Positions 11,777 to 59,980 of a DNA stretch of 64,000 nt are shown here, piece by piece. Position 1 is the stretch's first letter, and each line of letters opens with the position of its first letter. Source of the DNA: Acidithiobacillus acidisediminis (lineage in GTDB: Bacteria > Pseudomonadota > Gammaproteobacteria > Acidithiobacillales > Acidithiobacillaceae); assembly GCF_023277115.1 (NCBI RefSeq), contig NZ_JALQCS010000001.1, forward strand, positions 1,916,001-1,980,000, given 5' to 3'. A program made the position numbers and the translations under genes. Under the pieces are notes generated by a model. The model saw nothing but the letters and a program-made list of their open reading frames with translations. It was not told the origin of the DNA and searched no databases.

Positions 11777-11926
11777 TTCTCTGCAATCCTTCCGTACATA
11801 TCTATGCATCTTCTCTGCACTGTCAGTTTTCAGAGAAGAACAACCAGTTGATTTACAAGAAGTTAATTTGGCGACGATTCCATAACCTCCGATTTCTTCT
11901 CTGCACATCATTCGCCCTTCTCTGCA
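11777..11926. repeat. Four TTCTCTGCA repeats between the AlbA-type gene and res
   Basis: Exact copies of TTCTCTGCA occur at 11777-11785, 11811-11819, 11897-11905 and 11918-11926. A partial inverted copy, CAGAGAAG, lies near 11830. The first abuts the res start and the last lies in the final codons of the upstream gene. The gap is more AT-rich than the genes. A regulator binding array controlling res separately is plausible. Confidence 0.55.
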
Positions 11927-40777: not shown

Positions 40778-41100
40778 TGCAAAACCTCCTTGGCGCGTTG
40801 CCGTGCCGTCTCTATGGCCCGCTTGGGCGTCTTCTGCGCTTTCTTGACGAAAGCATGCAGGATGACCAGCCGTCTCCCTGTTGCAGTGACATATATTGCT
40901 CTGGCAATCCCATCCGGCGCCTTGGCGCGTATTTCCCAGAGCTTGTCTTCCAGGTGCTTGATGTGTGGCTCGTGGACCTGCTCCAGCCCCACCTGCTCAA
41001 TGAGCTCCACTATCCGCAACAGTCGCGCGCGCAACGCGGACGGCAGGGCTTTGAGTTCATCATCAACACACTTGTCGAGGGTCTCTGCGCTCCACTTCAT
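40774..41100 (-). CDS. RelE/Gp49-type HigB-like toxin
   Basis: This 108-residue protein of the phage-derived Gp49-like (PF05973) toxin family contains the core LEDKLWEIRAKAPDGIARAIYVTATGRRLVILHAFVKKAQKTP, with the basic and aromatic residues typical of ribosome-dependent mRNA interferases. It overlaps the integrase gene by 4 nt upstream and the antitoxin by 4 nt downstream. The three genes are therefore translated as one unit. Confidence 0.85.
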   Translation of the reverse strand: MKWSAETLDKCVDDELKALPSALRARLLRIVELIEQVGLEQVHEPHIKHLEDKLWEIRAKAPDGIARAIYVTATGRRLVILHAFVKKAQKTPKRAIETARQRAKEVLQ

Positions 41101-42581: not shown

Positions 42582-42628
42582 GACTCTTAATCAGCGGGTC
42601 GTGGGTTCGATCCCCTCACAACCCACCA
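42582..42628 (+). repeat. att copy 2: boundary of islands A and B
   Basis: This is identical to tRNA bases 1304-1350 (47 of 47) but lacks the 5' half of a tRNA, so it is a recombination scar rather than a gene. It serves as attR of island A and attL of island B. Confidence 0.92.
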
Positions 42629-42636
42629 AACAAAAC

Positions 42637-42676: not shown

Positions 42677-42700
42677 AGTAGACGTATAGTAGACGCTTGG
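42677..42700. promoter_or_regulatory. Left-end arm-type integrase sites of island B
   Basis: AGTAGACGTAT is followed directly by AGTAGACGCTTGG: a direct repeat with an 11-bp period. The full 24 bp recurs exactly at 57333-57356, beside the island B integrase. Confidence 0.7.
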
Positions 42701-44085: not shown

Positions 44086-45045
44086 ATGGCCCATTTGGTA
44101 GAAACAATGGCATTTATAAGAGAGACCCCATGGCACGGCTTGGGGAATCGGCTGTTGGAAAAGCAGCCTTTGGACGTCTGGCTGCAGGCGGCGGGCATGG
44201 ACTGGGAGATCAAGACCACTGATGTCCTGTTTCGTGTCGGTACCGGCAGTAATTTCAACATCCATCCCAACCCGGATGCCAAGGTGCTGTATCGGTCGGA
44301 TACCTTGGCCCCCCTGTCCGTAGTTTCTCCCCGTTATAAGGTGGTTCAACCCAGGGAGATTCTGGAGTTTTACCGTGATCTGGTGGAGGTCGGTGGCTTT
44401 GCCCTGGAGACTGCCGGTGTCTTGAAGGGTGGCAAGAAACTCTGGGCGCTGGCACGTACTGGAGAGGAGTTTCTGCTGCGTGGTGCTGATCGGGTCAAAG
44501 GCTATCTGCTGCTGGCCACCAGCTGTGACGGCACCCTGGCCACCACGGCGCAGTTCACTTCGGTGCGGGTGGTCTGCAACAACACCCTGCAGCTTTCATT
44601 GGAGCAAGGCAAAGATGGCGCCATCAAGGTACCCCATTCCACGACGTTTGATCCCGATGCCGTCAAAGCGGCATTGGGTGTGGGTGTTACGGCCTGGAAC
44701 CGTTTTGCCGAGTCCGCTCAGGTGCTGGCCGAACGGAAGGTCAACCGCCTGGATGTGACGAAGTTCGTCATCAGCGTGCTGGGAGACCGGGATGCGCCCT
44801 TAACGGCACAGCCCAACGAAAAGGCGCTGAAGGGCGTCATTGAACTCTTTGCCGGTCAAGGCAAGGGCAGTCAGTTGGCATCCAGTAATGGCACCGCATG
44901 GGGACTGGTCAATGCCGTCACCGAATATGTAGACCACCACCGCCGGGCCAAGAGTCAGGATACCCGTTTGGACTCTGCCTGGTTTGGTCAGGGTGCGGGC
45001 ATCAAGGCCAAAGCCTGGACGGAGGCGCTGAAACTGGTGGCTTGA
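44086..45045 (+). CDS. DUF932 phage/plasmid-like protein
   Basis: This 319-residue protein of the DUF932 (TIGR03299) family begins MAHLVETMAFIRETPWHGLGNRL and contains VSPRYKVVQPREILEFYRDLVE and LLLATSCDGTLATTAQFTSVRVVCNNTL. These proteins are common on phages and plasmids, often near recombination genes, but have no proven activity. AAGGAGG provides a strong ribosome site. It is followed by an intrinsic terminator and then the YqaJ gene. Confidence 0.85.
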   Translation: MAHLVETMAFIRETPWHGLGNRLLEKQPLDVWLQAAGMDWEIKTTDVLFRVGTGSNFNIHPNPDAKVLYRSDTLAPLSVVSPRYKVVQPREILEFYRDLVEVGGFALETAGVLKGGKKLWALARTGEEFLLRGADRVKGYLLLATSCDGTLATTAQFTSVRVVCNNTLQLSLEQGKDGAIKVPHSTTFDPDAVKAALGVGVTAWNRFAESAQVLAERKVNRLDVTKFVISVLGDRDAPLTAQPNEKALKGVIELFAGQGKGSQLASSNGTAWGLVNAVTEYVDHHRRAKSQDTRLDSAWFGQGAGIKAKAWTEALKLVA

Positions 45046-45082
45046 GTGCCGGCAGCCTTTCCCGCAGTAATCTCTCTCAACC

Positions 45083-45113
45083 GCCCTCAAGGTTTTTACC
45101 TTGGGGGCTTTTT
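45083..45113 (+). terminator. Intrinsic terminator after DUF932 gene
   Basis: GCCCTCAAGGT (45083-45093) pairs with ACCTTGGGGGC, ending at 45108, followed by TTTTT. Confidence 0.8.
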
Positions 45114-45131
45114 CATTTTTGGAGGAACACC

Positions 45132-46076
45132 ATGAGTGCATTGAAATTAGTTTCTACCCGCAGCCTGTCCCGAGAGGAGTGGCTGCAATGGCGGCACAAG
45201 GGCATTGGCTCCAGTGATGCCGCCGCCGCCATCGGCAAGTCTCCCTACACCGCACCTTTGGCACTATGGTTGGAGAAGACAAGCCGTAAGTCCGCAGAGG
45301 ACCTCTCCCAGAAAGATGCCGTCCGTTGGGGCACCTTACTGGAACCGCTCATTGCCCAAGCCTATGCCGAACAGACCGGCAAGAAGGTGCGGCGGGTGAA
45401 TGCCATTCTGCAACATCCCGAGCATCCCTATCTGTTGGCCAATCTGGACCGGATCATTGAGGGGGGTGGGATCCTCGAAATCAAAACGGCGGGACTGCGT
45501 AGTCAGGGCTTCTGGGAAGAAGGGGTACCCGAGCATTACCGCATCCAGGTACTGCATCAGCTCCTCGTGACCGGCAAAAGCTGGGCCGAAGTGGCGGTGC
45601 TCATTGGGGGGCAGGAGTTTCGGACCTACCGGATAGAACCGGACGGTGGGGAGTTGTCCGAATTGCTGCACGCTGAGCAGGCATTCTGGCATTACGTCAG
45701 CTCTGACACCCCCCCCGAAGCAGATGGCACGGAATCCAGTGGCAAGGCCCTGCAATGGCTCTATCCCCGCTCCACGGCCACTTTGGTGGATTACACCGAG
45801 CATGGGGCCATGAATGCCCTCTTCCGGGAGCTTATCCAAGCCCGTGCCAAGAGCAAGGCCGCCGAAGTCCACGAAGCCATTCTGGAGCAGCGCATGAAGG
45901 AAAGTCTCGGGGATGCCGAAGGCGCTCTGTTCCTGCAAGGCAAGGTGCTGTGGAAAACCAGCAAGGACAGCCGAACTCTGGACACTCAGAGCCTTATTCA
46001 AGAACACCCGGATTGGGTAGCGCCGTATTGGATCACCAAACCCGGCAGTCGCCGATTCACCGTACAAGCAGAGTAA
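45132..46076 (+). CDS. YqaJ-family recombination exonuclease
   Basis: This 314-residue protein has the YqaJ/lambda-exonuclease fold: the N-terminal LSREEWLQWRHKGIGSSDAAAAIGKSPY, then RWGTLLEPLIAQAYAEQTG, the catalytic D in LLANLDRII and E-x-K in GGILEIKTAG. It would degrade one strand of double-stranded ends to feed single-strand annealing. GGAGG precedes ATG 45132. It is followed 12 nt later by the directionality-factor-like gene. No RecT/Bet annealing partner is seen. Confidence 0.9.
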   Translation: MSALKLVSTRSLSREEWLQWRHKGIGSSDAAAAIGKSPYTAPLALWLEKTSRKSAEDLSQKDAVRWGTLLEPLIAQAYAEQTGKKVRRVNAILQHPEHPYLLANLDRIIEGGGILEIKTAGLRSQGFWEEGVPEHYRIQVLHQLLVTGKSWAEVAVLIGGQEFRTYRIEPDGGELSELLHAEQAFWHYVSSDTPPEADGTESSGKALQWLYPRSTATLVDYTEHGAMNALFRELIQARAKSKAAEVHEAILEQRMKESLGDAEGALFLQGKVLWKTSKDSRTLDTQSLIQEHPDWVAPYWITKPGSRRFTVQAE

Positions 46077-46088
46077 GGAGACATTATC

Positions 46089-46886
46089 ATGATCAAAGGA
46101 CTCGCCATCACCCCGCCCGTATTGGGGCGGATTGCCATCGGCAAGGTTGTAGAGAAGAACGGCAAGCGCCTGCCCGAAAAGGATGACGCCTTCACCATCA
46201 CCACCCAGGTGCAGCAGCAGGGAGAATGGATGCTGCATCCGCTGCATCTGCAATTACAACAGCAACAAGGCACTCAAAAGCTGCGGTCTATTCCCGTGAC
46301 GTTGCTCTTCAATGACCCCGATCTGAACCTCCGGGCGGATTATAGCGCCTTTGACAAAACCACGGGCAGGCCGCTTTGTGTGGGCAACGGAGAAAGCGCC
46401 CGGCGGATGACGCAGGACGGCATGCAGTCGGTAACTTGTCCGGGGCCACAACTCTGTGGTTTTGGGCAGGAAGCGCGGTGCAAGCCTTATGGGCGGCTCA
46501 ACGTGCAGATTGAAGGACAGGATGATCCCTTGGCGTCATTCATCTTTCGTACCACGGGCTTCAACAGTATCCGCACCCTGGCGGCACGGCTCAGCTACTG
46601 GAACGCCGTGACGCAGGGCGCCGCAAAGTATCTGCCGCTGTCCCTAAAGCTGCGGGCCAAGAGTACGACACAAAGTCATCGGGCACCCATCTACTACGTG
46701 GACCTGACCCTACGGGAGGGAGTAGACACCGCCGAGGTGCTGGGGCAAGCTACAATCCATGGGAAGGAACATCAAGAGGCGGATCATGCATTGGAAGCCG
46801 CAGCCAGACAAGGCCTCAGTAACGGGATCTTGGAAGAGACCGACGAGGAACGGGAGGCTGTGCTGGAGGAGTTTTTTTCAGAGTAA
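46089..46886 (+). CDS. Gp3-like recombination directionality factor family protein
   Basis: This 265-residue protein contains the pattern VTCPGPQLCGFGQEARCKPYG and RLNVQIEGQ, with FIFRTTGFNSIRTLAARLSYW, typical of the Gp3-like directionality-factor family (often annotated as hydrolase or metal-binding protein). Four cysteines suggest a metal site. Such factors usually partner serine integrases, whereas this island has a tyrosine integrase. The last 35 residues (EETDEEREAVLEEFFSE) recur in a diverged copy at 47568-47741, suggesting 3'-end exchange. Confidence 0.65.
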   Translation: MIKGLAITPPVLGRIAIGKVVEKNGKRLPEKDDAFTITTQVQQQGEWMLHPLHLQLQQQQGTQKLRSIPVTLLFNDPDLNLRADYSAFDKTTGRPLCVGNGESARRMTQDGMQSVTCPGPQLCGFGQEARCKPYGRLNVQIEGQDDPLASFIFRTTGFNSIRTLAARLSYWNAVTQGAAKYLPLSLKLRAKSTTQSHRAPIYYVDLTLREGVDTAEVLGQATIHGKEHQEADHALEAAARQGLSNGILEETDEEREAVLEEFFSE

Positions 46887-46958
46887 GTTCCCGCTTGCGT
46901 ATAGTGCTTTGACAAGCGCTGCCATCGCCCTTAAAAAGCTTCTGATTGTACCTACCGG

Positions 46959-46992
46959 AAAGCGCTATGAATACAATCATAGCGCTTTTTTT
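46959..46992 (+). terminator. Intrinsic terminator upstream of cargo gene
   Basis: A perfect 12-bp stem, AAAGCGCTATGA / TCATAGCGCTTT, with a 6-nt loop is followed by a T-run. It isolates the downstream cargo gene from the nuclease operon. Confidence 0.9.
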
Positions 46993-47035
46993 ATGCTCAA
47001 TAAAAAGCGACCATAGTCACCCAAAGGAAATCAAA

Positions 47036-47470
47036 ATGAACGAAGACATTATCAACATCGGAGTCAAGCTCATAAAACATATCGCTTCGAGGCAGCAGGT
47101 CGGGGTAGAGAACGAGCAAATTAGTCAGCGACTAAGTGATGATCTGTTCAACTTTAAAGAGTTACTATTAAGCCAAACGACTGGAGTGGCAGAAATTTTT
47201 TCAAATATAATTCTAAAAGCTTCGGAAGAGATTGACGCAAAACGACTACGCAACGCAGAATCGTTTTTAGCCTTATACATTGACCCAAACTGGAATGAAG
47301 AGTCTAAGGTTAGGGTCACGGAAGCGCAAATAAAAAGTGACACTGTAAATTCCGTTGCTGAAAAAGCATCTATAGCGACTGTGGCCACTGTAGCTATTGG
47401 GGCACTTGGATGGATAATAAAAACGATTATAGACAACAAAACAAAGCCAAAGAAGTTTTGGGAGAAATAA
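47036..47470 (+). CDS. Small membrane-associated cargo protein, hypothetical
   Basis: This 144-residue protein starts at ATG 47036 after AAAGGAAA. The first 110 residues are helical and charged, and residues ~113-135 form one transmembrane helix (IATVATVAIGALGWIIKTII) followed by a basic tail. The gene is AT-rich and sits between the directionality-factor gene and a second copy of that gene's 3' end, so it looks like inserted cargo. A soluble domain joined to one membrane helix is common in small defence or superinfection-exclusion proteins, but there is no direct evidence. Confidence 0.65.
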   Translation: MNEDIINIGVKLIKHIASRQQVGVENEQISQRLSDDLFNFKELLLSQTTGVAEIFSNIILKASEEIDAKRLRNAESFLALYIDPNWNEESKVRVTEAQIKSDTVNSVAEKASIATVATVAIGALGWIIKTIIDNKTKPKKFWEK

Positions 47471-47567
47471 TTTTTTACCATAACGAGTATAAATAGCAAA
47501 GCTTCCAATCAAGGAAACTACAAATGCACAGAACAAGAAACCATCTTTTCTCTTGGCAAGCAAACAA

Positions 47568-47741
47568 GAGACAGATAAAGAGACCAACCATGCATGGGAA
47601 GCCGCAGCCAGACTGGGACTCAGCAATGGGCTCCTGGAAGAAACCGACGAGGAACGGGAGGCCGTGCTGGAGGAGTTTTTCAGTGGTGAGGACGCTTCTG
47701 GTCAATCTGTCGGCCGCAAATCGGAACAAGCTGCGGCGTAG
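47568..47741 (+). pseudogene. Second 3' end of the directionality-factor gene
   Basis: The frame ending at 47741 reads NHAWEAAARLGLSNGLLEE, then TDEEREAVLEEFFSGEDASG, closely matching the C-terminus of the gene at 46089 (DHALEAAARQGLSNGILEE...). It has an extra 15-residue tail absent there. The DNA is similar but clearly diverged. It lacks the rest of the gene and is followed by a terminator (47766-47803). It is most likely the original or a foreign 3' end left when cargo was inserted. Confidence 0.7.
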
Positions 47742-47765
47742 GAAGCCTTCCAGTGAGAGCCAGAG

Positions 47766-47803
47766 GAAGCAGGCTGCCCATGGAGTGGCTTGCTTCTTTT
47801 TTT
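47766..47803 (+). terminator. Intrinsic terminator after the directionality-factor remnant
   Basis: GAAGCA (47766-47771) pairs with TGCTTC (47791-47796), with further inner pairing, and is followed by seven T. Confidence 0.65.
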
Positions 47804-48073
47804 AGCCAAGGTGTGTCGCGTTAGACTGAAAGCGGACATGTGGATGGGTTACCTTGGCCCTTTGTGCGTACCCAGGCTGGGGGGGGGGGTCATTGTTTTG
47901 TCTTATGTTGGCCGTTCATGACAAACCTTTGAAAAACAACCGGTTGGAGTTATCATCGAGGGCGCACCATGGGACAGAATGATCTTCTGTGCCAGGTGTT
48001 GAACATGCATGGATGCCGATAAGTCGTCTGTGATATCATTCAACCATCTATAAAACCTAATCAAAGGCTGGAA
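47804..48073. other. Leader region of gtr cassette with G11 tract
   Basis: No gene is seen. It contains an uninterrupted run of eleven G at 47879-47889, about 185 bp upstream of the gtrB start. Promoter elements for the cassette should lie here but are not clear to me. Confidence 0.5.
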
Positions 48074-49048
48074 GTGGCTGCAGAACATCACGAGGTTTCC
48101 CTGGTCGTACCCTGTCATAACGAGGCGGGCAATCTTTCCGTCCTCTACGAGCGCGCCCTTGCCATCATGGAGCAAACGCAGAAGTCGTGGGAACTAGTGT
48201 GCGTCAACGATGGCAGCAAAGACGATACACTGGATCGTCTGCTGGCTCTGCACCAAACGGATCCCAGAGTGGTGGTCATCGATCTCTCCCGTAATTTTGG
48301 CAAAGAAGCTGCGCTCACTGCGGGGCTGGATCACGCCCGTGGAGACTGCGCCATTCCGCTCGATGCTGACCTCCAAGACCCTCCAGAGCTTATCCCAGAT
48401 CTTCTGGCCAAGTGGCAAGAAGGGTATGACGTTGTCAACGCGGTGCGCCTATCAAGAAAAGGGGAGTCATGGCTCAAGCGGGCCAGTGCTCACGCATTCT
48501 ATCGGTTTATCAACCGGATGAGTGACATACCGATACCTGAAGACACCGGGGACTTCCGACTCCTTTCCCGACCGGTATTGGAAGCATTGCAAAGACTTCC
48601 TGAGCGCCGCAGGTTCATGAAGGGCCTTTTTGCATGGGTGGGTTTCCGAACAACCGTTGTGTATTACCATAGAGATCCTCGTCTATCTGGGAAAACCACC
48701 TGGAACTACTGGAAGCTCTGGAATTTTGCTGTGGAGGGCATCACATCCTTCAGTAAGGTACCACTACAGCTCGCGGCACATCTAGGACTGATCGTTTCGG
48801 GCCTGGCATTCCTCTACGCGATCTATCTAATTATCGGGACCCTAGTATATGGAAACCCTGTCAAGGGCTACCCATCCATGATGGTTACCGTCTTATTCCT
48901 GGGCGGTGTGCAGCTGATCGCGCTCGGTGTCATCGGTGAGTACCTTGGCAGAATCTATGAAGAGACAAAAGGTAGACCAGTGTATTTGGTGCGCAACGTC
49001 TCAACGAACTCTCAGTATCCCAACGGTGATCAGCATGATCAGGAATAA
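48074..49048 (+). CDS. gtrB: GtrB-like bactoprenol glucosyltransferase
   Basis: This 324-residue family-2 glycosyltransferase has VSLVVPCHNEAGNLSVLYE, VCVNDGSKDDT, LDADLQDPPEL (D-x-D metal site), RLLSRPVLEAL and RRRFMKGLFAWVGF. Two C-terminal transmembrane helices follow. GtrB/DPM1-type enzymes transfer glucose from UDP-glucose to undecaprenyl phosphate on the cytoplasmic face. The start is GTG 48074. It overlaps gtrA by 14 nt, and gtrA is followed by a large membrane protein gene: the three-gene layout of O-antigen modification clusters. Confidence 0.9.
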   Translation: MAAEHHEVSLVVPCHNEAGNLSVLYERALAIMEQTQKSWELVCVNDGSKDDTLDRLLALHQTDPRVVVIDLSRNFGKEAALTAGLDHARGDCAIPLDADLQDPPELIPDLLAKWQEGYDVVNAVRLSRKGESWLKRASAHAFYRFINRMSDIPIPEDTGDFRLLSRPVLEALQRLPERRRFMKGLFAWVGFRTTVVYYHRDPRLSGKTTWNYWKLWNFAVEGITSFSKVPLQLAAHLGLIVSGLAFLYAIYLIIGTLVYGNPVKGYPSMMVTVLFLGGVQLIALGVIGEYLGRIYEETKGRPVYLVRNVSTNSQYPNGDQHDQE

Positions 49049-49448
49049 ACAAATTCACCAGATGGTTCGATTCGGGATCTCTGGTGTGGCAGGTTTTCTC
49101 GTAGATGCTGGCCTCGTTGCTCTATGTACTCAGGTACTCAGCATTGGTCCCATACTCGCCCAGGTAATCGCGTTCAGTGTAGCGGTCACTGTAACATGGC
49201 TAATCAACCGTCATTGGACCTTTGCGGAGCACGCAAGCGATAGATGGCTGTATGAGTTGGCCCGATATGTGACGGCTAATTCTGTTGGCGCGGCAGCGAA
49301 TAATGCCGTCTACGTTTCCTTGGTTCTCACTATAACCGCATTTTCAAAGGATCCAGTCCTCGCTGTAGCTGCTGGCTCTTTGGCTGGAATGAGTCTTAAT
49401 TTTGCATCCTCAAAACTCATAGTATTCAAACCACGGCGAGCAGCGTAG
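49035..49448 (+). CDS. gtrA: GtrA-like flippase
   Basis: This 137-residue protein has four transmembrane helices and the GtrA pattern: MVRFGISGVAGFLVDAGLVAL, then TWLINRHWTFAEH, ELARYVTANSVGAAANNAVY, and FASSKLIVFK. GtrA is thought to flip the glucosylated lipid carrier to the periplasm. ATG 49035 lies within the end of gtrB, implying coupling. It is much shorter than gtrB and of normal length for the family. Confidence 0.9.
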   Translation: MIRNKQIHQMVRFGISGVAGFLVDAGLVALCTQVLSIGPILAQVIAFSVAVTVTWLINRHWTFAEHASDRWLYELARYVTANSVGAAANNAVYVSLVLTITAFSKDPVLAVAAGSLAGMSLNFASSKLIVFKPRRAA

Positions 49449-49477
49449 TGCATAATATTACACATCAAGGACTCTGA

Positions 49478-51478
49478 ATGACCACCACCAGAAAGAACAC
49501 CAATATATTTTTTATATTATCATTTTGTTTTTTATATATTTTTATTAATATAGTTTATTTTCACCCATTTTCTCACAACTTTGAACACACTATATTTATG
49601 CCTGGAGGTGATCAGGAGTCATTCATATGGTTTATAAAGTGGTGGCCATATGCTATTTCTCATGGGTTAAATCCTTTTATTGCGCGATATATATGGAGCC
49701 CTAGTGGATTTAACCTAACTTGGGCGACATCCATCCCAACATTATCAATACTCGCAGCCCCATTAACAATACTATTTGGTCCAATATTTAGTTGGAATTT
49801 GTTAAGTTTGTTGGCGGCACCGCTCAATGCAATCTGTGCATTTCTTTTGTTGAGATATCTATATAAGAATAATTTTGCTGCTTTCCTGGGCGGCTATGTG
49901 TTCGGCTTTGGCTCATATGTAATGGGTCAGTTGCTTGGACACCTAAACCTAGATTTTGTCTGTTTAGTTCCATTGGCCATATTATTATTTGTGATGAGCG
50001 TTAAAGATGACATAAACAGATACTATTTTGTAATAATTATGGCGTTCATTATTTTTCTTGAAGCCGGAATATCAACAGAGATTTTGGCGACAAGCACATT
50101 GTTTGGATTTATTTCTATAGCGGTGTTCGTCTTCCTTCAAAACGTGGCGCGCAAAAAGATACTGGTGTCGGCCTTATATTTATCTATATCATATGTTCTT
50201 GCAGCGATTTTATTATTTCCATTTCTATATTTTCTGATCAAAGGCTTTTCTGGCGTTCCGAAAATAATTAACAGCCCAACAGCCTACTCATCAGACCTAC
50301 TAAATTATATAATTCCAACACCAGTAACAAGAATTGGAAGAAGTGTTTTTTCCAGCATCGCTTCTCGATTCACGGGAAACTATGCGGAAGAAGGCGCATA
50401 CATTGGATTGCCGTTACTTTTATTTACGTCATTCGCTATTAGAGATTACATTGCTGAACAAAAGAGAACAGGCATTGCTCTGTTCATCATTTTTATAGTG
50501 ATTATCGTTTTTTCATTAGGCCCATATTTGCAAGTCAATGGTGTGAATACACACGTTATAATGCCATGGACATTTTTTACGCATGTACCGCTGATAAGGG
50601 GAGCTCTGCCCACCAGGTTTACAAATTATGTAAGCCTAATGGTGGCCATTTTTGTTGGATTCTGGCTTTCCACACAAAAAGTGACTAAGAAAAGATATAT
50701 GGCAGCAATTGCGTCAATTGTTTTCATTATTCCAAATATTTCTATTTACAATTGGGGTGGTCAACACGTCCCAAGCATTTTCACCAAACATAAAATATTA
50801 GCAGGATCTAATGTTATAGTATTGCCTTTCGGGTATACCGGGCCATCCATGTTTTGGCAATTAGAATCAGGAATGAGTTTCAACATGGTTGGTGGATATG
50901 TTGGTTTTTCTCCCCTGCCATTTAGAAGACTTCCAGTCACGTCAGACCTTTTTTCTGGTATTCCAGGCGGAAATTTCAACGATTTATTTAGAGCATACTG
51001 TTCGCAATTTCATGTAAAATATGTGGTTGTATGCCATAATACTCCGGCTTCGTTGGCTAAAGCTGTGAAAAATGAAGGTTGGGACAGTAAAGAATATGGC
51101 CAATGCATGGCTTATCATGTCCCAAGCCATATGAAATATTACGTGTATTCTGGAAATGTGTGGGGGAGTTATGATAGATATGGGTGGATCGGGAAGAACG
51201 TAATCCTAAAGACCCAAAACGAACCGATAAAAATAATTCTTACTGGGCAATTCATCCCGCATGGTGCACCTAACGTCAAAATAAGGTTATATGAGGCCGA
51301 CGGAAAAGTCATAAAAAAGACTTTTATTCCAGGGAAAAAGCAATCACTGGCTGTAAATATGAGAGGGGTTAAGCGTATATATATATCTGCAGGTAACACG
51401 TGGATCCCAAAAAATATAATCCATAGTGGTGACACTAGGAAACTATCTGTCAGCATGAAGATAGAAAAACAGAGATAG
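49478..51478 (+). CDS. GtrC-like polytopic membrane glycosyltransferase (GT-C type)
   Basis: This 666-residue protein has about ten to eleven transmembrane helices and a C-terminal soluble domain. The first periplasmic loop has acidic residues (FMPGGDQESFIWFIKWWPY), as in GT-C enzymes. Its place after gtrB and gtrA is that of the serotype-specific gtr gene, which adds the glucosyl unit to O-antigen. It is markedly more AT-rich than gtrBA, indicating a separate origin, as is usual for the variable gene of such cassettes. Family naming is by position; the sequence also recalls YfhO-type proteins. Confidence 0.75.
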   Translation: MTTTRKNTNIFFILSFCFLYIFINIVYFHPFSHNFEHTIFMPGGDQESFIWFIKWWPYAISHGLNPFIARYIWSPSGFNLTWATSIPTLSILAAPLTILFGPIFSWNLLSLLAAPLNAICAFLLLRYLYKNNFAAFLGGYVFGFGSYVMGQLLGHLNLDFVCLVPLAILLFVMSVKDDINRYYFVIIMAFIIFLEAGISTEILATSTLFGFISIAVFVFLQNVARKKILVSALYLSISYVLAAILLFPFLYFLIKGFSGVPKIINSPTAYSSDLLNYIIPTPVTRIGRSVFSSIASRFTGNYAEEGAYIGLPLLLFTSFAIRDYIAEQKRTGIALFIIFIVIIVFSLGPYLQVNGVNTHVIMPWTFFTHVPLIRGALPTRFTNYVSLMVAIFVGFWLSTQKVTKKRYMAAIASIVFIIPNISIYNWGGQHVPSIFTKHKILAGSNVIVLPFGYTGPSMFWQLESGMSFNMVGGYVGFSPLPFRRLPVTSDLFSGIPGGNFNDLFRAYCSQFHVKYVVVCHNTPASLAKAVKNEGWDSKEYGQCMAYHVPSHMKYYVYSGNVWGSYDRYGWIGKNVILKTQNEPIKIILTGQFIPHGAPNVKIRLYEADGKVIKKTFIPGKKQSLAVNMRGVKRIYISAGNTWIPKNIIHSGDTRKLSVSMKIEKQR

Positions 51479-51845: not shown

Positions 51846-52140
51846 TGCGGTTGGCTGGAAGACGTCTCGGCTTTATTGCGCGTCTGGCTCCGGTGCGGTA
51901 GTAAGGTTTCTATGGAGTCCACTGATGGGCGTCGGCTGAACTGCCGGGCATCCACAGGTCAGGCGTGGGGGTGCAGGTGCGTTCGGTCGTGGATGTCACC
52001 GGCACACCGCGGTGGCGGTTTTTTTTGAGGAACTTTCAGTGACCGTCTGTTTGAACGCCAACAGGCACAACCGCGGTTGGCCCAACGGCGAATTCGGAGT
52101 CACGGCGGGGTGTGGGAGCCGTGAGCGAAGACTGGGGCTC
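51846..52140. other. Non-coding stretch between the IS21 remnant and origin candidate
   Basis: No gene is seen. ACCGCGGTGGCGGTTTTTTTT near 52005-52025 looks like a short terminator-like hairpin with a T-run. Confidence 0.35.
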
Positions 52141-52332
52141 AAGCTGTAACGCGCGTAACGCACGGATTTTCCTTCCGTTACAATAAAAATCAATATAAAC
52201 AATCTTGTAACGCTGTAACGCCTGTTACGTTCTTTTAATTAATTAATAAAGAAAATATCATCTCTCTATAAAGCTCATATATATTCAGCTCTCTCCCCTA
52301 GAGGCGCGTTACAGGCGTTACAGCGTTACAAG
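52141..52332. other. Candidate replication origin (iterons around AT-rich core)
   Basis: TGTAACGC-type iterons occur at 52145, 52154 (CGTAACGC), 52206 and 52214. Inverted forms GCGTTACA lie at 52306, 52315 and 52323, with CGTTACA at 52176. The block 52204-52225 is a perfect 22-bp inverted repeat of 52311-52332. Between them lies about 80 bp of very AT-rich DNA (TTTTAATTAATTAATAAAG). It lies 70 bp beyond the 3' end of the primase-helicase gene. Paired iterons plus an AT-rich melting zone are the hallmark of an initiator-dependent origin. Confidence 0.75.
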
Positions 52333-52403: not shown

Positions 52404-55358
52404 CTAACCGCTGCCCCCCCCTGTCACCTCAAAAACGGCAGTATCTAATTGCTCCTCGGGCAATTCTCCGGAAAGGATTGCACCTTTGACGGCGTACACC
52501 CGCATTGGTCTCATATCTGGGACTCGTCGTGTATCGGCCTTAGGCAGGTCCATGAAGCCCTTAGCTACCAAGTGTTCCGCCAGCTGTTGCTTCGTCACCC
52601 CCTGGCAAAACTCGGCCTCAAAAGTCGGCACAGGAATCCAAAACTCAAACTGCGGGTTGGCTTCGCTGCTATCTATCCACTTGCCATAACCCCAGCACGG
52701 GTTTGGGACCCTGGTGCCTTCCCCCAGACCAATTTGTCCAGAGCGGTTTATCCACTCAAAGCGGGCAGAGCCGTAGAGATGCAATTTTTGCACCAATGCC
52801 TCATAAGCGCGGATGATATCAGTGGATTCCGAACCCCCTCGTTCATTCAGCCAGGCCTGGAAACACCACTGTGCTGCCGCAATGGCTTCACCCTCTTGAA
52901 AAGGAAGAATATGCCATAAAATTGCCAGTTCCCCAGCGGCAGCTACAGCAGCGAAGCGTTGAGCAACGCGATGCACTTGGTTGTCTCCACCTCGGACGTG
53001 CCAGTCCGCCTGCAGGCGGTGGATCTGCGCATCGAAACGCGCAACGGTCCAATCCTTATCCTCGGTTGTAGCCAGTAACCGAGTCAAGAAGGCCCTGATG
53101 GGTGTGCCATAGAACCGACGGCTGGCCTCATCAAGATGATCCACCAACTCCCGGGCGCTTTGAAAGCCGTTGAGGCTTTGAATGATGCCCATCCCCGCCC
53201 CAGCGTCGGCCTTGACGTCAAGCAAACGCACCTCATGTCCTGCCATAGAACGCTGGTTGGTCTGGTGAAGCAACTGATTCAGTGAGATTTCCCCAGAAGA
53301 CAGAAAAACCAGCCGGAATTTCGTCACCGGTCTTGCGGAAGCATCCGCCCGCATTCGCCCCTTTCCTTGCCCATTACCAAGCAAATATGTAGCATCCCCT
53401 GCCGAAGCTGCTGAAAGGGAACCCAGTTCGTCCAGCGTCAAGAGTGCATCGTTGCGGGCCGCAGCCAAGGTTTCCAGTGCATTATCCGTCGTCCGCCAAC
53501 TATTGATATATTGCTGCGGATCCCCCCACACCGATGAGGCCACCTTAAGCAACCTGGTCTTACCTGAGCTGCTGGGGCCACGGAAATGGACACCAATATT
53601 TTCCATTCCCGTCAGGCGTAGCAGAGGGGGCAGAAAAGCAGCAGACAACGCCAGCACCAAGAGCGGATTGCCCTGGCACAATGCCGCCACATGGGTCTGC
53701 CACTCATCCAAAGTCCCCGCCTGCCCGTAGGCCTGCATAAATTCCATTAGGCGCTCTGCCATGTGGTACCCGTCAGTTCCTTGGTCACCTGCAATCCCAA
53801 AAACAGCATCGGGCAGAGCAAAGACGGCGCATTCCTCATCCAGCCAGCCGCTGGATTCCACCAGAGTCAGACGACGGTTTACGGGAAAGTCTTGGATAAA
53901 ATATGCCAGAAGCTCCCGGCCTTTAGTCGTCGTATTGCATCGAACACCGTGATCCATCAGCGCCCGCCTGAAATTTTCAGAGGTCAAATCGGTAGCTAAG
54001 AGGCGGATGTTATGGCAACTCCCATCGGGATCCCAGACCTTCAGCAGGTATGACCACTGTCCGGATGACAGATCTCGAACCAAGGCATCCACAATGATGG
54101 GCGTTGCCAGCCAAGTGACCACCGGAATGTCCTTCTTGCCAACACTATGATGGGTCACCGCCTTCTCATCCACTTGGAAAGGACCAAAGCGCAAAGAGGG
54201 AAATTCGACCTCGTCGTCTCTTGCGTCACGAATCTCCTCGATCCAGCCCAGTTCTCGCACCTTATCGACGGCTGCCGGACACAACTCCTCAAGAGGAATC
54301 TCCGTCTCGTCACCATAACGCCGGGCGAGCCAAGGCTTACCCTTGGTTACAAACCAGGACCCGGGGGTGTTTTCGTCCGTGAAATAGAGCACCAAGATGG
54401 CGCCATTCCCCCGCAACCTCGTATCCTGCAAAGTCCGTCCTGTGCGGACCGCATTGGGATCAGTAGGCACCAGACAGGTGTAACGGCGGCGTTGCCCATC
54501 CACCTCGGCAACTCGGCTTTGCAACTGATGGCCATGTTCCACCGCCCAGGTTTCCCTGATCTCCCTTCTTTGCCGATTTACCGCGCCTGGCAAGTCGGAT
54601 GCAATATCCGGCAGGTTCACGCTGTCTGCGGGTTTAGCCACGAAACCCAGACGCTCCTGGTGGGTGATGTCACAATTGATTCCGCTATCAATCATCGGTT
54701 CCGCCGTATAGTGCAGCTGGTTTGATGATTTGATCGGCGCCATATCAATACCAAGTACCACCATGGGTATGCCACCCTTGTTCAAGTCCACACTGTAGAA
54801 TCCAGTCTGAAAGCAGAATTGTTCCAGGTGGGCGGCCAACATGGCCCCTCGGACGGGGCGGGTCAGCCAGAAGAAGAGGTGTACCCGGATACCGGGTTTT
54901 AAGTAACTGCCGCCCGGATTCATGATGCCCGCTGAATTTGAAAACATGTACACGTAGCTGACCTGCTGAAATTCGGGAGGCAGCATTGAGACCACATATT
55001 CCACCGCTTGCAGGCTGCAGGGCGCAATACCCTCAGGAGCGGGTATGCCGTCGATGTCCAGCATTACCCAGGGCGTGCCCTCCGGGGCCTCGGGAAAGGC
55101 TTCGCTGGTACGCCTGGTCACTTTTTCCGTTTGCGGCGTGGGCAACCCCCGAATTATTGCACAGCGCCGATTCCGATAGATGTCCTGTAACAGGGTATGA
55201 AACTCCCTGATACCCTCTACCGGCCGCTGCTCCCAAACAAACTCGGCGCAGTTCGGGTAGGGGTCGGTTTTCACCACGTTGTTTTCGGTTAGCTGAAAGT
55301 CCTTGGAAAGTGGAATGAGTTCGTCAGTGGGTCGCAAAACGGTGATGTATGTTGTCAT
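52404..55358 (-). CDS. Primase-helicase (DUF927 type) of island B
   Basis: This 984-residue protein has an N-terminal primase-polymerase-like domain (WVMLDIDG with the acidic pair, then GIRVHLFFWLTRPV) and a C-terminal DUF927/helicase part: Walker A GPSSSGKTRLL, LLTLDELGSLS (Walker B) and FRLVFLSSGE. It would start replication at the iteron region just past its 3' end. ATG 55358 is chosen because AGAGGAG lies 9 nt upstream and it overlaps the AlpA stop (ATGA). The longer frame lacks support. This fits satellite- and plasmid-type replication. Confidence 0.85.
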   Translation of the reverse strand: MTTYITVLRPTDELIPLSKDFQLTENNVVKTDPYPNCAEFVWEQRPVEGIREFHTLLQDIYRNRRCAIIRGLPTPQTEKVTRRTSEAFPEAPEGTPWVMLDIDGIPAPEGIAPCSLQAVEYVVSMLPPEFQQVSYVYMFSNSAGIMNPGGSYLKPGIRVHLFFWLTRPVRGAMLAAHLEQFCFQTGFYSVDLNKGGIPMVVLGIDMAPIKSSNQLHYTAEPMIDSGINCDITHQERLGFVAKPADSVNLPDIASDLPGAVNRQRREIRETWAVEHGHQLQSRVAEVDGQRRRYTCLVPTDPNAVRTGRTLQDTRLRGNGAILVLYFTDENTPGSWFVTKGKPWLARRYGDETEIPLEELCPAAVDKVRELGWIEEIRDARDDEVEFPSLRFGPFQVDEKAVTHHSVGKKDIPVVTWLATPIIVDALVRDLSSGQWSYLLKVWDPDGSCHNIRLLATDLTSENFRRALMDHGVRCNTTTKGRELLAYFIQDFPVNRRLTLVESSGWLDEECAVFALPDAVFGIAGDQGTDGYHMAERLMEFMQAYGQAGTLDEWQTHVAALCQGNPLLVLALSAAFLPPLLRLTGMENIGVHFRGPSSSGKTRLLKVASSVWGDPQQYINSWRTTDNALETLAAARNDALLTLDELGSLSAASAGDATYLLGNGQGKGRMRADASARPVTKFRLVFLSSGEISLNQLLHQTNQRSMAGHEVRLLDVKADAGAGMGIIQSLNGFQSARELVDHLDEASRRFYGTPIRAFLTRLLATTEDKDWTVARFDAQIHRLQADWHVRGGDNQVHRVAQRFAAVAAAGELAILWHILPFQEGEAIAAAQWCFQAWLNERGGSESTDIIRAYEALVQKLHLYGSARFEWINRSGQIGLGEGTRVPNPCWGYGKWIDSSEANPQFEFWIPVPTFEAEFCQGVTKQQLAEHLVAKGFMDLPKADTRRVPDMRPMRVYAVKGAILSGELPEEQLDTAVFEVTGGGSG

Positions 55359-55570
55359 TGCGTAACTCCTCTGCGGTCTGAAGTGGATAGGTGTTGGCAC
55401 TGGGCTATGAATTGCTCCAAGTCGTGCTGGCGGTATCTGACCGCTCGGCCGATGCGAACGAAGGGGATGCGGCCGGTAAGGACGCGGTCTTTGTTGAGCC
55501 ACGACTCGGAGAGCCGCAGGTAGGCTGCGGCATCGCGGGTTGTTAAGAGATTGCTGATACTCTGTTGCAT
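55355..55570 (-). CDS. AlpA-like excisionase/regulator
   Basis: This 71-residue HTH_17 protein has LLTTRDAAAYLRLSESWLNKDR, then IPFVRIGRAVRYRQHDLEQFI. It overlaps the primase-helicase gene by 4 nt. AlpA-like proteins act as excisionases or activators for satellite and plasmid elements. It likely links excision by the island B integrase to replication. Confidence 0.82.
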   Translation of the reverse strand: MQQSISNLLTTRDAAAYLRLSESWLNKDRVLTGRIPFVRIGRAVRYRQHDLEQFIAQCQHLSTSDRRGVTQ

Positions 55571-55744: not shown

Positions 55745-56125
55745 ATGGAAAAAAAGGCTGGAAGGAAGCCCTTGAAGCAAGCGGACTTGGTTGCATATGA
55801 GAAGGCAAGGAAACTCCTAAAAGGGGAGATGCTCCGTCTCGGATTCACAACTACAGACTTGGCGCGCAGCCTTCAGCTGGGTGGAGTAGAGATTGATGTC
55901 AACGGTCTCGGGAGGAAAATCCATAAGGGTGGCTTTTCTTTGGCATTTTTCCTCCAGTGCATGGAGGCCATGGGTATTACCCAGCTTGATCTCTACAATG
56001 CCCGCCCCCCAGAATCCCGCTTCTCCCCGGAGCTAGGTATTCAGCGTGGCGAAAAGATGAAGCTCATCGATGATGAAGACCCCGCCTATCAACGGAAGGG
56101 AGGGGAATCTGATCCAGAGACCTGA
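55745..56125 (+). CDS. DUF6471-type protein
   Basis: This 126-residue protein contains ARKLLKGEMLRLGFTTTDLARSL, then GLGRKIHKGGFSLAFFLQCMEAMG, the DUF6471 signature and helix-turn-helix-like. GGGAGGTGATATG is an excellent ribosome site for ATG 55745. It is divergent from the AlpA operon and converges with the integrase gene, overlapping it by 37 nt. It is probably the repressor that controls the AlpA-replication operon. Confidence 0.8.
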   Translation: MEKKAGRKPLKQADLVAYEKARKLLKGEMLRLGFTTTDLARSLQLGGVEIDVNGLGRKIHKGGFSLAFFLQCMEAMGITQLDLYNARPPESRFSPELGIQRGEKMKLIDDEDPAYQRKGGESDPET

Positions 56126-57312
56126 GCAAGAATAGCTCCGGCAATCCGGTCCATAGGCTCCCGTAGCCGCTCCACGCCGCTAACGATATAGCCCGCTGTG
56201 ACATCTCCCCGGTCGGTGCGGTGGTTCACCAGCCGCTTCAGGGCGTAAGCGCTAATGTCCAGGCTGTCGGCAACGGTGATGAAGGTGCGCCGCAGGTCGT
56301 GAACGGTGACGCTGACCCCTGTTTTTTTCGCCACCGCCGCAAGGGCCTTCCGAGGTTCCTGCACGTAGCCCTTCGCCCCACTGCTGGAGAATACAAAAGG
56401 GCTTCCCGCTTGACCAGCCTCAGCACGGCGCTGGATCAAAAGGTCCACCAAGAACTCCGGCAAGGGCAGCTCCAGCGGGTCGTGATTCTTGGTATTGGTG
56501 ATGGTCACCATGCGGTTGGCCAAGTCCACCTGCTCCCAGGTCAGGCTGGCCGCCTCTTCCCGCCGCAGGCCGGTAAATAAAAGGAACAGCAAATAATCCC
56601 GCAGGGTGGCGTTGCCCAGTTCCTTGACCGCCGCCATCCAACGGCCCAAGTCCCCCGGCCTCAGGCAACCCTGCCGCCGGGGAATCTTTTTCCATGCGCG
56701 GGTGTGGGAAAGCGTCTGCACCGGGTTTTCTCGAAGCAAGGGGCGCTCCGCGGTGCCGTACTGATGCATAGCGAAATTCATGATGGCCCGCAAGGCCCGC
56801 ATCACCACGTTGGCCGTGGCGGCACCCCTCTCTTCCGCAAGACTGCTGAACCGCTCACTGACCTTTTCCCGTGTGATGCTGGCCAGGGGACGGTCCGCCC
56901 AGTCGGCCAGATAGAGATCCACTGCCCGCTGATATTCTTTGATGGTCTTAGGGGTCAGACCCCGCACTTGAACGTATTGTAGAAACGCCTCCCTGAGCGT
57001 GATCCCTTTGACACGTTCCTGCCGCTTTTTTTCCGTCGGCAGTTCACCACCGGCCATCTCCGCCAACAATTGCTGTGCCCTGTTGCGGGCATTCTCAGGC
57101 GTCCATGGAGCGCCATAAGCACCGATGGTCACCCGCTTGGGTTTGCCGTTGACCCGGCGTTCGGCAACGAAGATTTTGTTGTGCTCCGTCACCTTGAGTC
57201 CAAACCCACGGAGCTCGTTATCCCGGTAAAACCTCGGCGGCTGGCCGGGTGCTTGCAAGGGGATGGCGTCTACTGCCCGCTTGGAAATCTTGATTCTGTC
57301 TACCATGGTCAC
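56089..57312 (-). CDS. int: Tyrosine integrase of island B
   Basis: This 407-residue tyrosine recombinase has a DUF4102 arm-binding N-terminus (RFYRDNELRGFGLKVTEHNK) and the catalytic residues R (LFTGLRREEAASL), H-x-x-R (VTVHDLRRTFI), H (RLVNHRTDRGD) and Y (AGYIVSG). It is only distantly related to the island A integrase, yet uses the same tRNA-Lys site with different arm sequences. It could start at the first or third codon. Its 3' end overlaps the convergent DUF6471 gene. Confidence 0.95.
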   Translation of the reverse strand: MTMVDRIKISKRAVDAIPLQAPGQPPRFYRDNELRGFGLKVTEHNKIFVAERRVNGKPKRVTIGAYGAPWTPENARNRAQQLLAEMAGGELPTEKKRQERVKGITLREAFLQYVQVRGLTPKTIKEYQRAVDLYLADWADRPLASITREKVSERFSSLAEERGAATANVVMRALRAIMNFAMHQYGTAERPLLRENPVQTLSHTRAWKKIPRRQGCLRPGDLGRWMAAVKELGNATLRDYLLFLLFTGLRREEAASLTWEQVDLANRMVTITNTKNHDPLELPLPEFLVDLLIQRRAEAGQAGSPFVFSSSGAKGYVQEPRKALAAVAKKTGVSVTVHDLRRTFITVADSLDISAYALKRLVNHRTDRGDVTAGYIVSGVERLREPMDRIAGAILAQVSGSDSPPFR

Positions 57313-57332: not shown

Positions 57333-57356
57333 AGTAGACGTATAGTAGACGCTTGG
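57333..57356. promoter_or_regulatory. Right-end arm-type integrase sites of island B
   Basis: This is an exact copy of the 24-bp segment at 42677-42700 (AGTAGACGTAT, then AGTAGACGCTTGG), about 20 bp upstream of the integrase start. Confidence 0.7.
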
Positions 57357-57480: not shown

Positions 57481-57526
57481 ACTCTTAATCAGCGGGTCGT
57501 GGGTTCGATCCCCTCACAACCCACCA
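57481..57526 (+). repeat. att copy 3: boundary of island B and region C
   Basis: The sequence ACTCTTAATCAGCGGG through ACCCACCA is identical to bases 1305-1350 of the tRNA (46 of 46). It lacks the 5' part of a tRNA. Confidence 0.92.
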
Positions 57527-57534
57527 AATAAAAC

Positions 57535-57693: not shown

Positions 57694-58641
57694 TCAATCG
57701 TTCAGTTCCAGAACGTCCCAGTCCGCCGGGCGCGCCTCGCCGGTCTGGTAGAACTGCTTCACCAGCTTCAAGTATTCCAAAAAATCCCGGCTCTCCGTGG
57801 CCAGTCGATTGGCCATGTCCCAATCGATCTCATCGCGCTCGCGGGCCGGAATCAGCACCTGACTGTCGGCAGGATTGTCCACGTCCAGCTTGATGAAGCC
57901 GATGCCGTGGGCGGCAAACAGCATCCGTAGCTCCTTTAACGTATCGGTGCCGCCGATTTCAGCCGCGACCAGGTAGCCGAAATTTGCCCACGACGAATTC
58001 GAAACCGCCTGAAAAAAACACTCGCGCACGTTCGAACGGTTTATCAGCAGCTTGGCCTCGAATGACCACAGCTTGGTGCGCTTGTCGGAATACTGCGTGA
58101 CGCAATCGCGGACTTCGCGGTGCCATTCCTTGCTCAAATCCTCCATGCCGACCACATCCGGGTACAGCCAACGGTTGCCGTTGGGTCCGCGTTTGTTCGA
58201 GGAGCGCTTTTCGTCGATGCGTTTGGAGAACACGCCGAATTCCTCCCAAAGGTATTGAGAGAGCATCGGGTACAGCGCGTGCTCGCCGATTTTTGATGCA
58301 TGCGTATCTGCTGCCGACGCTGCCCCTTCGCTTTCGACCGCAGCCACCTCTGCGCTGTCCGTTCGCTCCGAGTAGTAGTACTTGCGCGGCCGCCCCTCGG
58401 TGGTTTTTAGCTCTGGATGCCGTGCTTGCATGCGTGGGCGCTGCGAGCTGATTTCTGCGACGAGCTGCTGCACCAAATCCGCATCAGACTTGATGTAGTC
58501 GCCTCGACTTTTGGATTTCTTTTCCTTACACTCGACGGGATAGTTTTCAAAAATCCACTCGGCGATTTGTCTCGCCGTCAGCTTTTCGGCGGAACGCGAC
58601 TTCAATAATTCCAATACGGTTTTTGCCAGATTCAACGCCAT
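57694..58641 (-). CDS. COG2958-type (HrgA-like) HARE-HTH and nuclease-like protein
   Basis: This 315-residue protein has an N-terminal HARE-HTH domain (ARQIAEWIFENYPVECKEKK) and a C-terminal domain with DVVGME and LWSFEAKLL in the order of a PD-(D/E)XK nuclease, then NFGYLVAAEI. This is the COG2958 family, linked to restriction loci (HrgA of Helicobacter). It ends the leftward operon, 11 nt after the CD-NTase stop. It may be an accessory nuclease of either the type I system or the CBASS-like pair. Confidence 0.78.
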   Translation of the reverse strand: MALNLAKTVLELLKSRSAEKLTARQIAEWIFENYPVECKEKKSKSRGDYIKSDADLVQQLVAEISSQRPRMQARHPELKTTEGRPRKYYYSERTDSAEVAAVESEGAASAADTHASKIGEHALYPMLSQYLWEEFGVFSKRIDEKRSSNKRGPNGNRWLYPDVVGMEDLSKEWHREVRDCVTQYSDKRTKLWSFEAKLLINRSNVRECFFQAVSNSSWANFGYLVAAEIGGTDTLKELRMLFAAHGIGFIKLDVDNPADSQVLIPARERDEIDWDMANRLATESRDFLEYLKLVKQFYQTGEARPADWDVLELND

Positions 58642-58652
58642 AGAAATTCCCC

Positions 58653-59429
58653 TCAGAGCCTGAACAACTTCTTGACCTCATTCTCTGCCGTTATCGGCAA
58701 ATCATCCTTTTCGTATTGTCTGACATTAGCCACGATATTCCTTGCGCGCGTGATCTCATTGTTCACCCACTGTGAGTACGACGAGCTGGTGTTCAGGTTA
58801 TCAATGACGGCAAGGAAGTAGTCCTTCTGATTTGCCAGAAACCAAAAACGCAGGCCGCAGACCCATTTCTCCATCTTAAAGGATTGGAACGGGAATCCAG
58901 CGGTTGCATTCCAGTACTTAAATAGCCGAATGGTTGGTTTAATCAGCGACTTGTGTTCCTTGTTTTTCGCCTCAAGAGTCGCGTTGAAGTCGTTCGGATT
59001 CGTAATCATCCAGCCACCTGTACCATTGGGAATCCGAAGTCCTCCGAGCCATGTTTTTATCGCAGGCACCAAGTCGAATTTGATATGGTTCAGCTCAAGC
59101 ACAATAGTTGGAGTTGACTGATAAATTTCCGACGATCCATAACGCTTTTCGACGAAATCCTTTAATCGATTCAGGTACGTCTGCGGGGCAGCGCTGCCAT
59201 CGCTGAAGACCACCATGTAATCAATATCAGACTGCTCATCCATCGAACGGGGCAGGATCGTGCCTCGAGTCGACGACCCGAAGCGAAAGTGCTGGTTAAT
59301 AACACCGTTGGCGAAATGCGACGACATCCGCGACTGCAATGTCGAGATCGAGGTCGTGATTGACGACTGCTCAGTAGTAGAAAGCACTGCGCTGCTGGCG
59401 GTACTGGTGAGAAAACTCAATACCGACAT
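58653..59429 (-). CDS. CD-NTase-like nucleotidyltransferase (SMODS type)
   Basis: This 258-residue protein has the nucleotidyltransferase motif RFGSSTRGTILPRS followed by SDIDYMVVF (two metal-binding Asp) and a third Asp in IKFDLVPAI. The C-terminal half is helical, with the OAS1-like LIKPTIRLFKYWNATAG. It would make a cyclic or linear oligonucleotide signal on infection. It follows the SLATT gene by 4 nt with GGAAGG as ribosome site. It is short for a CD-NTase, but the active site is complete. Confidence 0.85.
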   Translation of the reverse strand: MSVLSFLTSTASSAVLSTTEQSSITTSISTLQSRMSSHFANGVINQHFRFGSSTRGTILPRSMDEQSDIDYMVVFSDGSAAPQTYLNRLKDFVEKRYGSSEIYQSTPTIVLELNHIKFDLVPAIKTWLGGLRIPNGTGGWMITNPNDFNATLEAKNKEHKSLIKPTIRLFKYWNATAGFPFQSFKMEKWVCGLRFWFLANQKDYFLAVIDNLNTSSSYSQWVNNEITRARNIVANVRQYEKDDLPITAENEVKKLFRL

Positions 59430-59433
59430 ACTT

Positions 59434-59955
59434 TCAACCTTCCTTATCTACCTTGTGAGTCGCTTCGCCTTCTTCGATGCCTTTGCGGGCGGAATCAAAC
59501 GCGCTACGCGGGACGCTTGGGCTTTTTTGGTTCAATTCGTTGCGCGTGGCCGAAAGCGCCTTCAGGCGTTCGGGCAGTTTCCCCAGAAGTTCCACCTGCA
59601 GCAATTCGACTTCACGGAAAATGCGGGCATCGTTGCGCAGTGCCAGAAACTGTCCCGCCGCAACCCGATGCATCGCAGCCCGCTCGTTTGGCTTGAGAAA
59701 CGTCATGAGACCGGCCAGCAGCGAGGCCAGCAGTGCCAATGCACTACCCACCTCGGCATAGCTCTTGAACAGAGCCGCCCCCGCGATAGCGGCAAATGCA
59801 GTGGCCGGAATACCCAACCAGTAATGGCAGCGTTCCCACACCTGCGCGGCATTAAAATGGCTCTTGCTGGAATAAGTCGCGTCTTCCTCGATCCGCTCGG
59901 CTTCCCGACGCAAGGCCGCAACCTTTTCCTGTTGGTTGGCTTGGGGTTCGTTCAT
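59434..59955 (-). CDS. SLATT-domain two-transmembrane effector
   Basis: This 173-residue protein has a helical N-terminus (RREAERIEEDATYSSKSHFNAAQVW), then two membrane helices (YWLGIPATAFAAIAGAALF and ALALLASLLAGLMTFLKP) and a C-terminal helical region (FREVELLQVELLGKLPERL). This is the SLATT layout (SMODS- and SLOG-associating 2TM effector), predicted to form pores on second-messenger binding. ATG 59955 has AGGAA upstream; ATG 59979 is an alternative. It precedes the CD-NTase directly. Confidence 0.85.
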   Translation of the reverse strand: MNEPQANQQEKVAALRREAERIEEDATYSSKSHFNAAQVWERCHYWLGIPATAFAAIAGAALFKSYAEVGSALALLASLLAGLMTFLKPNERAAMHRVAAGQFLALRNDARIFREVELLQVELLGKLPERLKALSATRNELNQKSPSVPRSAFDSARKGIEEGEATHKVDKEG

Positions 59956-59980
59956 CCCGTTTGTTTCCTGTAAGGACATT

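Follow-up and report, generated by a model that had tools for sequence, protein, structure and literature searches.

The DNA analysed here, a 64-kb stretch referred to as the window, contains a 48-bp 3' part of a tRNA-Lys gene that occurs in three exact copies genome-wide, one in the tRNA gene itself (1275-1350) and the others at positions 42583 and 57481. Therefore, two islands lie in tandem, A (approximately 41 kb) and B (14.9 kb). Island A spans approximately 1303-42630, occupies the same tRNA-Lys site as island B and has its own integrase (41097-42323). Its genes include type III restriction-modification genes, transposases, a Toprim primase and an AAA_25 ATPase. At 11777-11925, four copies of TTCTCTGCA plus a reversed partial copy, possibly an operator, surround the point (11786) where a type III restriction gene begins. 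Island B is flanked by att sites that directly repeat the 3' end of the tRNA and has an integrase at one end, as expected of an integrative element in a tRNA gene; judging from its sequence, it is a bounded 14.9-kb integrative element in the tRNA-Lys array. Its main features are the following:

42583 to 42630, plus strand: att copy bounding island B on the left, a 48-bp stretch from the 3' part of tRNA-Lys, identical in all three copies
42677 to 42700, plus strand: probable integrase arm sites of the left end, a 24-bp block identical to the right-end block
44086 to 45045, plus strand: DUF932 / TIGR03299 phage-plasmid-like protein
44898 to 46076, plus strand: YqaJ/RecE-like exonuclease, its start probably later than that of the mechanical ORF
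46089 to 46886, plus strand: Gp3-like recombination directionality factor
48074 to 51478, plus strand: cargo genes for GtrB, GtrA and a 666-aa membrane protein, a surface-sugar modification cassette
52404 to 55358, minus strand: primase-helicase (DUF927 Rep), 984 aa, with its ATG at 55358, a GAGGAG ribosome site upstream and an ATGA overlap with the AlpA gene
55355 to 55570, minus strand: 71-aa HTH_17 protein of the AlpA/excisionase type, its gene coupled to that of the primase-helicase
55745 to 56125, plus strand: DUF6471 protein, a possible regulator
56089 to 57312, minus strand: tyrosine integrase of island B, sharing 44-46% identity with integrases encoded next to Legionella DUF927 genes
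57333 to 57356, plus strand: probable integrase arm sites of the right end, AGTAGACG twice, 11 bp apart
57481 to 57528, plus strand: att copy at the right end of island B, 48 bp, the same tRNA-Lys part

Elsewhere in the window AGTAGACG was found once only, on the opposite strand beside the integrase start, and the two 24-bp blocks are probable integrase arm sites that would mark island B as one excision unit. The gene order of the island is not unidirectional, the genes at 44086-51478 being on the plus strand and the replication genes on the minus strand. Its GtrB/GtrA/666-aa cassette (48074-51478) is a phage-type cargo resembling those of serotype conversion, in which the 666-aa multi-pass membrane protein would be the type-specific glycosyltransferase. 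A 106-nt direct repeat (46771-46876 and 47575-47680, 86% identical) places a second copy of the end of the Gp3-like gene within a 93-aa ORF, about 800 nt further downstream. Among the island B proteins we found no match to relaxase, capsid or terminase families, no ParA or ParB and no PHROGs match to packaging or structural families, and four proteins fell into no family at all. The assembly contained no second or excised copy of the island, and our searches found no closely related island. Just beyond it (57694-63797), a SMODS nucleotide cyclase and a two-TM SLATT effector form a CBASS-like pair adjoining type I restriction genes.

An iteron array occupies the gap between the convergent cargo and primase-helicase genes, which end at 51478 and 52404, respectively. 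Direct reading and repeat finding revealed, between 52145 and 52330, six exact 8-mers TGTAACGC/GCGTTACA, three per strand, accompanied by near-copies. Exact TGTAACGC begins at 52145, 52206 and 52214 on the plus strand and exact GCGTTACA at 52306, 52315 and 52323 on the minus strand, and the near-copies are at 52154 (CGTAACGC), 52176 (CGTTACA) and 52223 (TGTTACG). The array is organised as follows:

52145 to 52182, unstranded: outer iterons, identified by sequence and pattern count, namely TGTAACGC (52145-52152), CGTAACGC (52154-52161) and CGTTACA on the minus strand (52176-52182)
52204 to 52229, plus strand: left arm of the inverted repeat, with three iterons (52206, 52214 and 52223, the third with one mismatch)
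52230 to 52306, unstranded: AT-rich core, the presumed melting site, 30% GC, its role being inferred from the PICI layout (PMC6092414)
52307 to 52332, minus strand: right arm of the inverted repeat, with three exact iterons (52306, 52315 and 52323)

The preliminary description had reported a perfect 22-bp inverted repeat around an AT-rich core, iterons spaced by 8-9 bp and a location directly behind a primase-helicase gene, and all three were borne out. The arms (52204-52229 and 52307-52332) match at 25 of their 26 bp, the perfect portion being 22 bp long (52204-52225 and 52311-52332); the iterons within them are spaced by 8-9 bp; the 77-bp core has 30% GC, compared with 55% in the window; and the array lies 73 nt past the primase-helicase stop codon. 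Its picture of mirrored iteron clusters held for the arms, which pair over 26 bp with the mismatch in the third left-arm iteron as the sole departure from symmetry, but not for the extra iterons at 52145-52182, which are present on one side only. The inverted repeat was the sole exact one of at least 14 bp (arms at most 150 bp apart) in the 64-kb window, and the two-iteron 16-mer had no other occurrence in the 2.8-Mb genome. The best clustered 8-mer count was 6, far above chance: it reached 2-3 when the island was shuffled 60 times and 1-3 when the flanks were shuffled 500 times.

The neighbouring gene had been called mechanically as a 1032-aa ORF starting at GTG 55502 and extending into the AlpA gene; translation probably begins at the ATG at 55358. 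Its product contains a DUF927 domain (PF06048, E 3e-69), with a Walker A motif GPSSSGKT at residues 642-649 of the 1032-aa ORF, and the DUF927 helicase makes up the C-terminal 600 residues. Profile comparison matched the protein to SaPI Rep (8tch, 5e-34) and SCCmec Cch (5dgk, 2e-25). We modelled the helicase part with AlphaFold (AF2) from an alignment of 42 sequences (pLDDT 89), and the predicted structure aligned with SCCmec Cch (5dgk) across model residues 11-584 (Z 31.8) and with SaPIBov1 Rep (8tch) across residues 14-590 (Z 29.3), the next-best matches being MCM helicases with Z of about 14 or lower. In this predicted model the whole helicase fold, including the C-terminal domain, matches the SaPI Rep and Cch initiator helicases, and the gene is predicted to encode an MCM-like DUF927 initiator helicase. 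The N-terminal part gave PHROG profile matches to primases and to 'replication origin binding' proteins of T5-like phages, and its VMLDID and RVHLFFW stretches resemble, in our reading, those of archaeo-eukaryotic primases. On these profiles and this motif reading the N-terminal domain appears primase-like; a single-sequence model of it was unusable (pLDDT 38.5). Viral contigs, scanned with one protein sequence at a time (the entire protein, then its N-terminal domain alone), yielded no relatives.

The association of such genes with iterons was evaluated at about 90 mostly proteobacterial loci, 80 of them DUF927 loci from named bacterial genomes and the others from plasmids, phages and relatives, by scoring clustered 8-mers in 600 nt at both gene ends and in random windows. 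An exact 8-mer in at least four copies was present in 37 of 89 3' flanks versus 2 of 87 5' flanks (Fisher p 4e-11) and 49 of 1050 random windows (p 8e-22 for the 3' excess), with the reservation that the loci are interrelated and the p-values do not come from independent samples. A tolerant score gave 36/90, 3/91 and 19/358 for 3' flanks, 5' flanks and random windows, respectively. A dense 3' iteron cluster thus accompanies about 40% of DUF927 loci, whereas such clusters occur in only 2-3% of the 5' flanks and in about 5% of the random windows. About half of the loci had no clear 3' cluster at these thresholds, for which divergence, degenerate repeats, errors in gene calling or another location of the iterons may be responsible. 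No iterons were seen at locus L021, and at L008 and L018 they were present but not at the computed gene end; the misplacement at these last two probably reflects gene-end or reading-frame problems. The commonest iteron spacing was 9 bp, and the clusters, which lay a median of 52 nt past the stop codon, were often in opposite orientation; the gap between them was inconsistently AT-rich, falling below the locus GC in 19 of 36 cases.

The iterons of these loci (GGGTTACA, GGGTAACA, GCGTGACA, TGGGGACA, CGGGGACA and CCGGGACA) have in common a G-rich NNGxNACA-like form, and one genome (G039, locus L006) carries the identical iteron GCGTTACA behind its DUF927 gene. Islands beside tmRNA in E. coli and Salmonella bear GTGGTACA iterons in the same place, 3' of the DUF927 gene. 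An uncharacterised DUF927 gene with GTGGTACA iterons (near tmRNA in locus L135) was present in 133 of 5,426 complete E. coli genomes, in 131 of them at an identity of at least 99%. Separately, a Pigmentiphaga humi locus (L048, 6490-17655) was seen to combine AlpA and DUF927 with the same DUF932-YqaJ-Gp3 module as island B (identities of 57% for DUF932, 49% for YqaJ and 69% for Gp3), which suggests a recurring type of element.

Several natural circles carry a DUF927 gene with iterons. Plasmid III of Legionella fallonii LLAP-10 (NZ_LN614829) is a 14.6-kb circle with an int-HTH_17-DUF927-iteron module whose iterons, CTGGGACA, begin 5 nt past the DUF927 stop, and by Pfam it encodes no replication initiator besides the DUF927 gene. 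In the circular Methylobacterium plasmid pMNOD05, which has a DUF927 gene and iterons, the DUF927 gene is the sole recognisable initiator gene, the only extras among the genes scanned being ParA and a weak DnaG zinc-ribbon protein. The DUF927-plus-iterons layout is likewise found in a 16-kb circular, satellite-like element of K. pneumoniae with capsid genes. These circles, as deposited in assemblies, support, without proving, autonomous replication by the DUF927-iteron module. A plasmid of Ca. Nitrosoglobus (L016) was rejected as further support, since it carries RepM with its own repeats.

In phage P4, the alpha protein is a fused primase-helicase with iterons around AT-rich DNA, a layout resembling that of island B; unlike the island B protein, however, P4 alpha is not known to belong to the DUF927 family, and P4 also possesses crr, another iteron region, of which motif counts found no counterpart in the window. 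Among the systems compared, the L. fallonii plasmid and related Legionella islands share with island B an integrase (45% identical), an HTH_17 gene before DUF927 and the 3' iterons, whereas the plasmid's DUF927 protein is shorter, 32% identical and devoid of a matching N-terminal domain, and its own cargo consists of a UvrD helicase and an OLD-like ATPase. The rep-ori of SaPIs shares a DUF927 MCM-like helicase with the same fold over nearly its full length (SaPIBov1 Rep, 8tch) and, immediately past the 3' end of its gene, two sets of iterons with an AT-rich stretch between them. It differs in that structural alignment gives only 15-17% sequence identity to the island B helicase, which adds the N-terminal primase-like domain, uses iteron GCGTTACA and belongs to a non-staphylococcal host. 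SCCmec provides the top structural match, Cch (5dgk), and the repeats on which its Cch2 acts immediately follow the gene for Cch2 itself, although SCCmec elements use serine recombinases and other priming enzymes and Cch2 is from another helicase family. The C-terminal domain of SaPI Rep recognises iterons directly downstream of rep, and Cch, bearing DUF927, is related to SaPIBov1 Rep (PMC7581432).

In Gram-negative PICIs, the AT-rich region 3' of the initiator gene always lies between two iteron sets, and the pri-ori segment of EcCICFT073 is able to maintain a plasmid (PMC6092414). Island B has the same arrangement of int, an AlpA-type regulator, a fused primase-helicase and an immediately 3' origin within an element of 10-20 kb, with two iteron sets around an AT-rich region. 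In contrast to those elements, no capsid, terminase or other packaging gene was found in it, half of the island is transcribed in the opposite orientation, converging on the origin, and it sits in a tRNA-Lys tandem. Because the gene order is not unidirectional and no packaging gene was matched, we did not file island B as a PICI, and we considered the status of a phage satellite without claiming it; its inducibility by phage finds no backing from any packaging gene in the island.

Since the site at 52145-52332 matches the published origin layout of SaPIs and Gram-negative PICIs, it is best read as the ori of island B, and we consider this assignment very probable. The earlier suggestion of a replicating island with its origin behind its primase-helicase gained support from the 3' iteron excess at DUF927 loci and from the closest solved structures, those of the Cch helicase of SCCmec and of the replication initiator of SaPIBov1. 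We regard it as unlikely that the anatomy of an origin has merely been retained by an island that no longer excises or replicates. The lack of an excised or second copy in the assembly and the locking of island B in tandem with island A would fit such decay, but the reading frames of int, AlpA and the primase-helicase are open throughout, and the preservation of the inverted repeat (25/26), of the att copies (identical over 48 bp) and of the arm blocks (24 bp) disfavours a decay of long standing.

That the iterons instead form an operator, at which AlpA, the initiator or the DUF6471 protein would control transcription, is highly improbable: inverted repeats are classic operators and one weak promoter-like match overlaps the iterons, but promoter-like matches at the site occur only at the shuffled rate, neither of the two convergent genes needs a promoter there, and in relatives the helicase gene has the iterons at its 3' rather than its 5' end. 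Iteron arrays also have partition roles, and one of the strands of the 129-bp inverted-repeat unit can fold into a long, strong hairpin (-33 kcal/mol as DNA, z -9.2), so that a centromere-like partition site or a transfer origin might be envisaged; we give this even less credence, as neither ParA/ParB nor a relaxase was found among the island B proteins and the array goes with the initiator helicase in relatives of differing cargo. Least probable of all is a miniature transposable element or terminator hairpin, to which the 129 bp between 26-bp inverted repeats in a convergent gap might point. The unit has a single genomic copy, no visible target duplication and iterons beyond the repeat, an intrinsic terminator would require a loop much shorter than its 77 nt, and a terminator-like match is located elsewhere, at 51994-52019.

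Returning to the origin, and given the island ends, arm sites, integrase and AlpA, excision followed by replication appears the most likely life cycle of island B. From the repeat anatomy, the protein family and fold, the recurrent 3' iteron clusters and the island ends, all shown by the present analysis, we infer a cycle in which Int would act with an excisionase (AlpA, the Gp3-like factor or both) to free island B as a circle, and the C-terminal domain of the DUF927 primase-helicase would bind the GCGTTACA iterons on both sides. The protein would then melt the AT-rich core and self-load as MCM-like hexamers, without DnaA or DnaC, and its N-terminal primase domain might prime the host polymerase.

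The origin clearly adds a new case to a design familiar from phage satellites, the staphylococcal pathogenicity islands among them. With its ends, initiator and origin defined, island B becomes a replicon that can be put to the test. More tentatively, and just short of an even call in our judgement, the DUF927 proteins of proteobacterial islands may be one class of self-loading initiators, with the origin directly behind the gene and NNGxNACA-like iterons, and many such islands, including island B, may be cargo islands that replicate after excision rather than phage satellites. In IncC- and SXT-mobilised islands, a conserved DUF927 gene is described as dispensable for mobilisation and its role as puzzling or elusive (PMC7449626). 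If true, the class reading would also account for those genes, which the 3' iteron pattern of the family suggests may be replication initiators, and would offer a hypothesis for the unexplained DUF927 genes on resistance islands. DUF927, formally a domain of unknown function, is linked here to adjacent iteron origins in many proteobacterial islands, and iterons 3' of a DUF927 gene would provide a simple rule for recognising islands that copy themselves.
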